From a bacterium (lineage in GTDB: Bacteria; SM23-31; JAUVVT01): a stretch of 30,514 nt of DNA. Positions 18,202-19,899 of this stretch are shown piece by piece (the stretch's first letter is position 1; each line of letters begins with the position of its first letter). The notes beneath the pieces are model-generated. The model searched no databases, was not told where the DNA came from, and saw only the letters and a list, made by a program, of their open reading frames with translations. Both the position numbers and the translations under genes were made by a program. The stretch lies in assembly GCA_030616165.1 (NCBI GenBank), contig JAUWXV010000015.1:1-30514 (forward strand). The letters are read 5' to 3'.

Positions 18202-18381
18202 TTACAAAAAGTTATCAAAAAACCATCTTGCCATAAACCTTTTATGAAATATTATTACAAATAGAGCTGACATAAATGCACCTATAAAAATTTCCAATCC
18301 TATAAAAAATTTCCCGGCTTCAAATGGTAAAAAATCACCAAGCCCAGGTGTTGTAATAGGAACAATTTCATAATTAATTGT
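18202..18381 (-). pseudogene. Remnant of a K+ channel pore (Ion_trans_2-like C-terminus)
   Basis: An open frame of about 60 codons without a usable start encodes a fragment with TTPGLGDFLP, which matches the TxxGYGD pore-loop region of two-TM potassium channels. It is followed by a hydrophobic TM2-like helix (FFIGLEIFIGAFMSALFVII) and a basic end (HKRFMAR). An in-frame TAA (18382-18384) immediately upstream and no TM1 show that only the C-terminal part survives. Similar tails close pentapeptide-repeat ion channels. Assigned by eye, so moderate confidence. Confidence 0.55.
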
Positions 18382-18492
18382 TTATAAATATGTTATATGT
18401 GATAAAAAAATTTTTATATTTTTTCTGATTTTTCTTGACTTTTGAAATTTTATAGATTAAATTTCAAATCGGATTAAAAATCCCCCAAAAAT

Positions 18493-18535
18493 AAAAAAAA
18501 GCCGGCAATATTCCCACCCAGCCGGCTTTTTTTTT
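18493..18535. terminator. Strong orphan bidirectional terminator
   Basis: Arms GCCGGC at 18501-18506 and 18521-18526, extended by eight A (18493-18500) and nine T (18527-18535), loop 14 nt. No + strand gene lies upstream for more than 1 kb and no minus-strand gene reads into it. A TTGACT at 18435-18440 and a small hairpin (GGATT/AATCC at about 18471-18483) precede it, so it could end a short untranslated RNA. Confidence 0.75.
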
Positions 18536-18610
18536 GAATTAAAATAAAACTAATATTCAAAGTTTCAATTATATTTTCAACTTTTAAAAAAATTGCATAA
18601 AAATTTTATC

Positions 18611-18639
18611 TTGACATTATATATAAGGTTATATATATT
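18611..18639 (+). promoter_or_regulatory. Sigma70-type promoter of the cysteine synthase leader
   Basis: TTGACA at 18611-18616, 17-bp spacer, TATATT at 18634-18639 (an alternative TATATA lies at 18632-18637). Predicted transcription start is about 18646, about 30 nt before the leader peptide start codon. Confidence 0.75.
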
Positions 18640-18676
18640 TTATATAGATTGTATAAACTTTAAAAGAAATATTAAA

Positions 18677-18745
18677 ATGATGAGTATTTGCCCTATACAT
18701 TGCTGTATGTATTTCTGTATTTGTTGTATTAGACCAGAGCAATGA
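18677..18745 (+). CDS. Cysteine-rich leader peptide of the cysteine synthase attenuator
   Basis: A 22-codon ORF with two adjacent ATGs (18677 and 18680) and a TGA at 18743-18745. Six of 22 residues are cysteine, at positions 5, 9, 10, 14, 16 and 17, including Cys-Cys at 18701-18706 and 18722-18727. The ribosome binding site is weak (AAAGAAAT). It lies between a consensus promoter and an intrinsic terminator in the leader of a cysteine biosynthesis gene. Its stop codon overlaps RNA segment 2 of the attenuator. Inferred role: ribosome stalling at Cys codons when charged tRNA-Cys is scarce. The peptide itself probably has no function. The main doubt is that a short ORF can be Cys-rich by chance. 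Confidence 0.8.
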   Translation: MMSICPIHCCMYFCICCIRPEQ

Positions 18746-18826
18746 TAGTGGGTAAATTTTATTTATCCTAAAAAAGTAATTACTTATAATAAAGCCCACT
18801 ATCAAAAAAATAGTGGGCTTTTTTTT
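18743..18826 (+). promoter_or_regulatory. Transcription attenuator: antiterminator and terminator hairpins upstream of cysteine synthase
   Basis: Three segments. Segment 2 is TGATAGTGGG at 18743-18752, segment 3 CCCACTATCA at 18795-18804, segment 4 ATAGTGGGC at 18810-18818 followed by eight T. Segments 2 and 3 are perfectly complementary over 10 bp (antiterminator). Segments 3 and 4 pair as AAGCCCACTAT (18792-18802) with ATAGTGGGCTT (18810-18820), a textbook intrinsic terminator. The two pairings exclude each other. A ribosome paused at the Cys-Cys pair would leave segment 2 free; one reaching the stop codon would cover it and allow termination. Confidence 0.85.
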
Positions 18827-18846
18827 AATATCAAGGGAGTATAAAA

Positions 18847-19899
18847 ATGAAACCAGAAAATGTTATAGATATCCTTGCGAGAACAAAAAATAAATTAGAT
18901 ATTCTCGCTGAAAATGTATCAAGTGAGATTTATAAAATTGCGAGGGGTGAAGCCGAAGAGGATAAATTCAGACTTATAAGAAACAAGAATTATCTTTGCT
19001 ACAACCCGCTTCTGAGCAGGATTGGAAATACTCCACTTTTAAGGCTAAACAGAATATCAAAAGACTTAAAAAATATTGACATATACGCAAAAGCAGAATG
19101 GTTTAATCCTGGAGGCTCCGTTAAAGACCGGGCTGGTTATTTAATGGTTCAGGAAGCAATCAGAAAGAGTAAATTAAAAGAAGGAATAACCTTACTTGAA
19201 TCATCTTCAGGAAATACAGGTATAGCACTCGCAATGATCGGGGCTTTTTTAGGATTTAAAGTAACTCTTGTTGTGCCTGAAAATATGAGTCTGGAAAGAA
19301 AGAAAATATTAAGAGCATATGATGCAGAAATTATATTCACCGACCCCCTTGAAGGAAGCGAGGGCTCAAGAAAAATTGCAGAAGAAATTGCAAACAATGA
19401 TAAAAAATACTTTTATATTGACCAATACAACAATCCTGATAACCTACTTGCTCATTACCTTACCACTGGACAAGAAATAATAGAACAGACACAGGGAAAG
19501 GTGACACATTTTATTGCAGGTGCAGGAACAGGTGGAACTATTATGGGTACTGGAAAAAGACTTAAAGAATTTAATCCGAATATAAAAATATATGCAGTTC
19601 AGCCAGATAATCCAACGCACGTTCTGGAAGGATTAAAACATATGAAAACCGTTGTTGTGCCCAGCATTTATAAAGAAGAAGAACTCGACGGAGTTATAGA
19701 GGTGTCAACCGAAGAATCATTAGAACTGATTAAAAGGCTTGCTAAAGAAGAGGGTTACTTTGCTGGTTTCTCATCTGGAGCAGCACTTGCCGGCTCATTA
19801 AAACTTGCTAAGACTATTGATAAAGGGTTTATTGTTACTGTCTTTCCTGACGGTGGAGAAAAGTACTTAAGCAGTGGATTATGGGGCAGTGATTTATGA
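18847..19899 (+). CDS. Cysteine synthase (O-acetylserine/O-phosphoserine sulfhydrylase family)
   Basis: 350 residues, about 40-50 longer than typical CysK/CysM because of an N-terminal helical extension before the usual NPLLSRIGNTPLL start (53-65). PLP-dependent fold type II: Schiff-base K93 in PGGSVKDR, SGNTG at 121-125 binding the carboxylate, GAGTGGT at 225-231 binding the PLP phosphate, and SSGAA at 309-313. It makes L-cysteine from an activated serine plus sulfide; which donor (OAS or OPS) is not certain. GGGAG at 18835-18839 supports the long start. The gene follows a Cys-leader attenuator, independently supporting the cysteine role. Its TGA overlaps the ATG of a small frameshifted ORF. 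Confidence 0.93.
   Translation: MKPENVIDILARTKNKLDILAENVSSEIYKIARGEAEEDKFRLIRNKNYLCYNPLLSRIGNTPLLRLNRISKDLKNIDIYAKAEWFNPGGSVKDRAGYLMVQEAIRKSKLKEGITLLESSSGNTGIALAMIGAFLGFKVTLVVPENMSLERKKILRAYDAEIIFTDPLEGSEGSRKIAEEIANNDKKYFYIDQYNNPDNLLAHYLTTGQEIIEQTQGKVTHFIAGAGTGGTIMGTGKRLKEFNPNIKIYAVQPDNPTHVLEGLKHMKTVVVPSIYKEEELDGVIEVSTEESLELIKRLAKEEGYFAGFSSGAALAGSLKLAKTIDKGFIVTVFPDGGEKYLSSGLWGSDL

Follow-up and report, generated by a model that had tools for sequence, protein, structure and literature searches.

The cysteine synthase gene carried by a 30,514-nucleotide stretch of bacterial DNA, here called the window, is very probably controlled by a ribosome-mediated transcription attenuator that senses the supply of Cys-tRNA. 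Ahead of the gene lie a leader ORF with many codons for the product (six Cys among 22 codons), an intrinsic terminator and, at the stop codon of the leader ORF, an antiterminator that excludes the terminator. This arrangement is conserved in other phyla, and it is also found in a genome of the same class (G003), there with a weak antiterminator. Judged from the sequence, the attenuator of the window appears to be well supported and of a kind already known, and the wider set of its relatives is apparently undescribed.

Anatomy of the Leader

The elements of the leader and of the controlled gene are the following, all on the forward strand.

18611-18639, +: sigma-70-type promoter, TTGACA-17-TATATT (consensus scan, 11/12 matches, which does not imply use)
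18677-18745, +: leader peptide ORF, 22 codons, translated as MMSICPIHCCMYFCICCIRPEQ and followed by the stop codon
18687-18704, +: segment 1, which overlaps Cys5 and the tandem pair Cys9-Cys10 and has the predicted partner 18738-18756 (1:2 hairpin)
18743-18753, +: segment 2, the antiterminator arm, which starts at the leader stop codon and pairs with segment 3
18791-18804, +: segment 3, which supplies the 5' arm of the terminator stem (18791-18802) and the partner of segment 2 (18794-18804)
18810-18826, +: segment 4 (18810-18821) and U-tract (18819-18826) of the intrinsic terminator, a 12-bp stem with a T run
18835-18839, +: GGGAG, a likely ribosome-binding site for cysteine synthase (sequence reading)
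18847-19899, +: cysteine synthase of CysK/CysM type, 350 aa (TIGR01138, TIGR01136)

The two promoter boxes (TTGACA at 18611-18616 and TATATT at 18634-18639, with a 17-nt spacer) are where the first-pass annotation had placed them, as are all the other elements that it named, and translation bears out its description of the ORF: 22 codons, six of them for Cys, with two tandem pairs. The Cys codons start at 18689, 18701, 18704, 18716, 18722 and 18725. Of the window's 882 short ORFs, counted on both strands, the leader ORF alone has a density of at least five Cys in 12 codons, and a Cys-dense ORF appears in none of 3000 dinucleotide shuffles of the leader. No clear Shine-Dalgarno sequence is seen 5' of the leader ATG when the sequence is read directly, and no second copy of the leader was found in the window's own genome. 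Just 5' of the promoter, at 18493-18534, there is a GC-rich hairpin between runs of A and T, possibly a bidirectional terminator that insulates the unit of leader and gene.

The intrinsic terminator sits between the leader ORF and the gene, and its end is 20 nt 5' of cysteine synthase. Its stem has 12 bp (18791-18802/18810-18821) and a stability of about -16 kcal/mol, with an 8-T run at 18819-18826. It is the sole terminator-like site detected by scan in 18300-18900, where shuffled sequence has a mean of 0.2. The sequences TGATAGTGGG at 18743-18752 and CCCACTATCA at 18795-18804 are exact reverse complements of each other, in agreement with the claim that segments 2 and 3 are perfectly complementary over 10 bp; with one further G-U pair, the 2:3 duplex of ten Watson-Crick pairs reaches -19.1 kcal/mol, a value equalled in 0 of 1000 shuffles. 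When the leader is shuffled with its dinucleotides preserved, a perfect terminator stem of at least 8 bp occurs in 12 of 3000 cases, and such a terminator together with a 10-bp competitor in none of the 3000. The fold of the whole leader has a z score of -4.39, a figure that includes the terminator itself.

The first-pass annotation had seen no obvious 1:2 hairpin, and had proposed a compact two-state design. This part of it probably does not hold, since folding predicts a hairpin 18687-18704/18738-18756 with probability 0.95-0.98, as calculated from the partition function for a ribosome-free transcript that has not yet reached segment 3. Because this 1:2 hairpin is predicted, the design looks like that of a classic four-segment attenuator. 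The z score of the hairpin depends on the stretch that is folded (-2.65 for 18680-18768, -1.11 for a slightly different stretch), and a 1:2 hairpin containing the regulatory Cys codons is therefore suggestive only.

The enzyme encoded by the controlled gene is extended at its N-terminus by about 50 aa. Its best models are TIGR01138 cysM (1.5e-107) and TIGR01136 cysKM (343.9 bits), both scoring below their cut-offs, the latter (344.15) by a fraction of a bit. In the enzyme tree, the cysteine synthases of the window and of a related locus (L085) are on long branches.

Predicted Switching of the Leader

In the enterobacterial trp, his and leu attenuators, the regulatory codons are in segment 1, the stop codon is by segment 2, and pairing of 2 with 3 competes with pairing of 3 with 4. 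The predicted order in the window is the same, with the stop codon adjoining segment 2, and the differences are that the amino acid is Cys, the target is cysteine synthase, and the lineage is a small candidate phylum. The sequences show the elements, their mutual exclusion and the return of the arrangement in relatives; we infer that the leader ORF is translated, that ribosomes stall on it, and that transcription terminates behind it in response to cysteine. When Cys-tRNA is ample, the ribosome would reach the leader stop codon and cover segment 2; the 3:4 hairpin would then form and RNA polymerase would terminate near 18826. When Cys-tRNA is scarce, the ribosome would stall on the Cys codons. 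A stall at Cys9-Cys10 would be the most effective one: with segment 1 masked, segment 2 could pair with segment 3, and the polymerase would read through into cysteine synthase. In a leader that is not translated at all, the 1:2 hairpin would form and termination would win, provided that the first-formed 1:2 hairpin persists.

These states were modelled by folding growing transcripts with the positions of the ribosome blocked, where a footprint of about 30 nt is assumed and where neither kinetics nor the steric bulk of the ribosome is included. With no ribosome, the 1:2 hairpin dominates until segment 3 emerges (0.95-0.98), then 2:3 appears briefly (0.68-0.78, for transcript ends 18804-18812), and thereafter 1:2 is found together with the terminator. 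For a ribosome placed on Cys9 or on Cys10, the probability of 2:3 is 0.94-0.97 at the same transcript ends, when segment 4 is not yet made. With a ribosome at the stop codon, the probability of 2:3 is 0 and the 3:4 terminator forms, as expected from the earlier proposal that a ribosome finishing the peptide covers segment 2 and permits termination. The companion proposal, that stalling frees segment 2, is reproduced by the model for Cys9-Cys10; at the site originally suggested, Cys16-Cys17 (18722-18727), the 1:2 hairpin can still compete when a ribosome without bulk is placed on either codon. In the model, segment 2 is freed best by a stall at Cys9-Cys10 (18701-18706), where the ribosome would mask segment 1.

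For the full transcript at equilibrium, the terminator is favoured in every modelled state. From this follows that the switch must be kinetic, with antitermination taking place before segment 4 is made. In classic attenuators, too, antitermination acts before segment 4 is made.

Cysteine Synthase Leaders in Other Phyla

Related leaders were collected as a set of 160 distinct sequences, consisting of 80 loci from named genomes together with class-wide samples drawn around a single genome of Acidobacteriota and a single genome of Bacteroidota. A Cys-dense short ORF is present in 26 of these 160 cysteine synthase leaders, whereas their opposite strand has none; of 2712 control stretches, 9 contain one (odds ratio 58, p 1.5e-26). 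Cys-dense ORFs are, in other words, enriched about 50-fold ahead of cysteine synthase. Two of the nine control positives (L038 and L135) are themselves terminator-bearing leaders that head operons containing cysteine synthase. Their polyCys leaders are at 154-261 and 97-192, respectively, and the operons, identified by eye from translations, encode a sulfite/nitrite reductase-like protein, siroheme synthase and cysteine synthase in one case, and a sulfurtransferase and cysteine synthase in the other.

With slightly different limits from those that gave the 26 Cys-dense ORFs, 35 Cys leaders are counted, and a downstream terminator follows in 22 of these 35 as against 13 of the 125 other leaders. 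Cys leaders with terminators and competing antiterminators occur in Acidobacteriota and in Bacteroidota. The sequences of segments 2 and 3 vary widely among the leaders, yet they match inside each leader: the summed pairing of antiterminators with their own terminators went unmatched (0 of 100,000 permutations of partners between leaders). The permutation ignores phylogeny, and a thinned set of 16 leaders gives the same result. The comparison with relatives that the first-pass annotation had suggested supports its reading, with the reservation that for five leaders (L085, L125, L156, L158 and L161) the own pairing is no better than the swapped.

L036 and L066, which are inside the raw count of 26, were set aside as support for the mechanism because they have no detected terminator and because their opposite strand reads, by eye, as Gln-rich; L008 and L030, too, have no terminator. 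In three Blastocatellia (L110, L112 and L115), polyCys ORFs end 16 nt 5' of the matched start of cysteine synthase with no terminator detected, and these are possibly a translational variant. In another blastocatellian leader (L099), from a phylum other than that of the window, segments 2 and 3 hold the ten bases of the window's own (TGATAGTGGG and CCCACTATCA).

Taken over the three phyla in which similar switches are found (Acidobacteriota, Bacteroidota and the window's phylum), it is fairly likely that terminator-type Cys attenuation, with diverse stems, is a widespread and undescribed control of cysteine synthase and sulfite-reduction operons. Cysteine, seldom described as an attenuation signal, is suggested to serve as one in distant phyla. 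The collected leaders form a testable set, in which the amino acid that is sensed, the target pathway and the switching stems are legible from sequence.

Alternative Readings of the Leader

A Cys-rich ORF could also act by translation attenuation or coupling, as in mycobacteria, and gate the access of ribosomes to the gene, the hairpin being incidental. The three Blastocatellia leaders without detected terminator are of the form that such control would take, and mycobacterial Cys leaders also lack obvious terminators (PMC1262725). In the window, however, a strong terminator with its U-tract stands between the leader ORF and the gene, where a translational leader would be terminator-free, and the partner of segment 2 is the terminator arm, not the GGGAG site, so that this reading is very unlikely. 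Equally improbable is an ordinary intrinsic terminator, or a leader RNA that responds to another signal (as a riboswitch, a T-box or a protein-binding site), next to which the Cys-rich ORF would be a coincidence. Terminators are common ahead of genes, and the low z score of the leader fold, terminator included, would suit a structured element; against it are the approximately 50-fold enrichment of Cys-dense ORFs at this very site and the Rfam search, which matched no family, T-box and riboswitch included, in the window, and in 15 related loci nothing except a tRNA.

Cys-rich small proteins do exist, and the short ORF might then encode a functional peptide that binds metal or takes part in redox chemistry, rather than a sensor. 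The peptides of different phyla share little except their Cys runs, and terminators and antiterminators recur alongside them, which makes this explanation the least credible of all. Attenuation of transcription by Cys-tRNA supply accordingly remains the preferred reading, and the claim to this effect in the first-pass annotation is supported by the anatomy of the leader and by the Cys leaders of its relatives, and further by the polyCys leader with terminator in G003 and by the His and Trp leader attenuators of the same phylum, described below.

Relation to Known Systems

Proteobacteria and Actinobacteria are the groups in which leader-peptide attenuation is best known. Attenuators have been predicted in phyla like the Acidobacteria as well, almost none with an assigned function (PMC2965389). 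Cys-rich uORFs are known in mycobacteria, as the first-pass annotation stated: Cys leaders without obvious terminators are predicted for mycobacterial cys operons (PMC1262725), and the mycobacterial polyCys short ORFs are cysteine-responsive attenuators according to Canestrari 2020 as cited in PMC13236596. These leaderless polycysteine ORFs, like the ORF of the window, precede cysteine biosynthesis genes, and the citing account gives them as cysteine-responsive (PMC13236596), as is predicted for that of the window; unlike it, they have no obvious intrinsic terminator (PMC1262725) and are cited as cases of translation attenuation (PMC13236596). The cbs leader predicted in Bifidobacterium longum shares with the window a Cys run in a leader ORF before a related PLP enzyme, and differs from it in that no terminator is reported (PMC1262725).

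A Cys leader with terminator has been described for cysS in Rhodobacterales, the uORFC-8-2 motif (PMC8632094). As in the window, a short leader ORF has Cys codons in tandem and a terminator behind it, and ribosome-mediated attenuation was proposed; in contrast to the window, the target is cysteinyl-tRNA synthetase and the motif belongs to one proteobacterial order (PMC8632094). Rfam, which may lack this motif, gave no match of it to the window. Overlapping predictions may be contained in the comparative survey of Lopatovskaya, Seliverstov and Lyubetsky (2010), to which PMC4833913 refers. No description of a Cys attenuator on cysteine synthase in Acidobacteriota, Bacteroidota or the window's phylum was found in the searched literature, in which subscription journals are sparsely covered; this is in line with the earlier statement that none was known in such a lineage.

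Probable Attenuation Leaders in the Same Phylum

The phylum of the window was sampled by six genomes. Among the genomes examined there is no close relative of the window's leader, and one other of the six has a counterpart: G003, of the same class, with 45% identity, a leader reading MKNILRNLCCNMIMCCCICCCNSAFIDTQPMSE and a strong terminator. The antiterminator of G003 is weak (-7.0 kcal/mol), and with 111 of 1000 shuffles equalling it, it is not significant.

In G003, G004 and G005, his genes are preceded by His-rich leaders, each followed by a terminator-like hairpin (L193 251-322; L194, reverse complement, 330-410; L195 258-329; for example MKINITINNSQHHHHHHHHSISG). Trp leaders with WWW or WW..W lie ahead of trpE in G005 and G004, each again followed by a terminator-like hairpin (L186 1246-1308; L188, reverse complement, 1244-1336). 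Because of these Trp and His leaders with their hairpins, leader-peptide attenuation is probably used in the window's phylum. No His leader was seen at the his genes of G000 and G001.

The genome to which the window belongs showed neither a His nor a Trp leader, its trpE leader (L187) included, and neither its cysE nor its two other cysteine synthase genes (contig C56) have a convincing Cys leader. The same genome carries, before ilvB (L197 1187-1369), an ORF with a Leu/Ile/Val-rich end, FFLLLSLLFILFLGNLSVVVLN, and a hairpin without an immediate U-tract.
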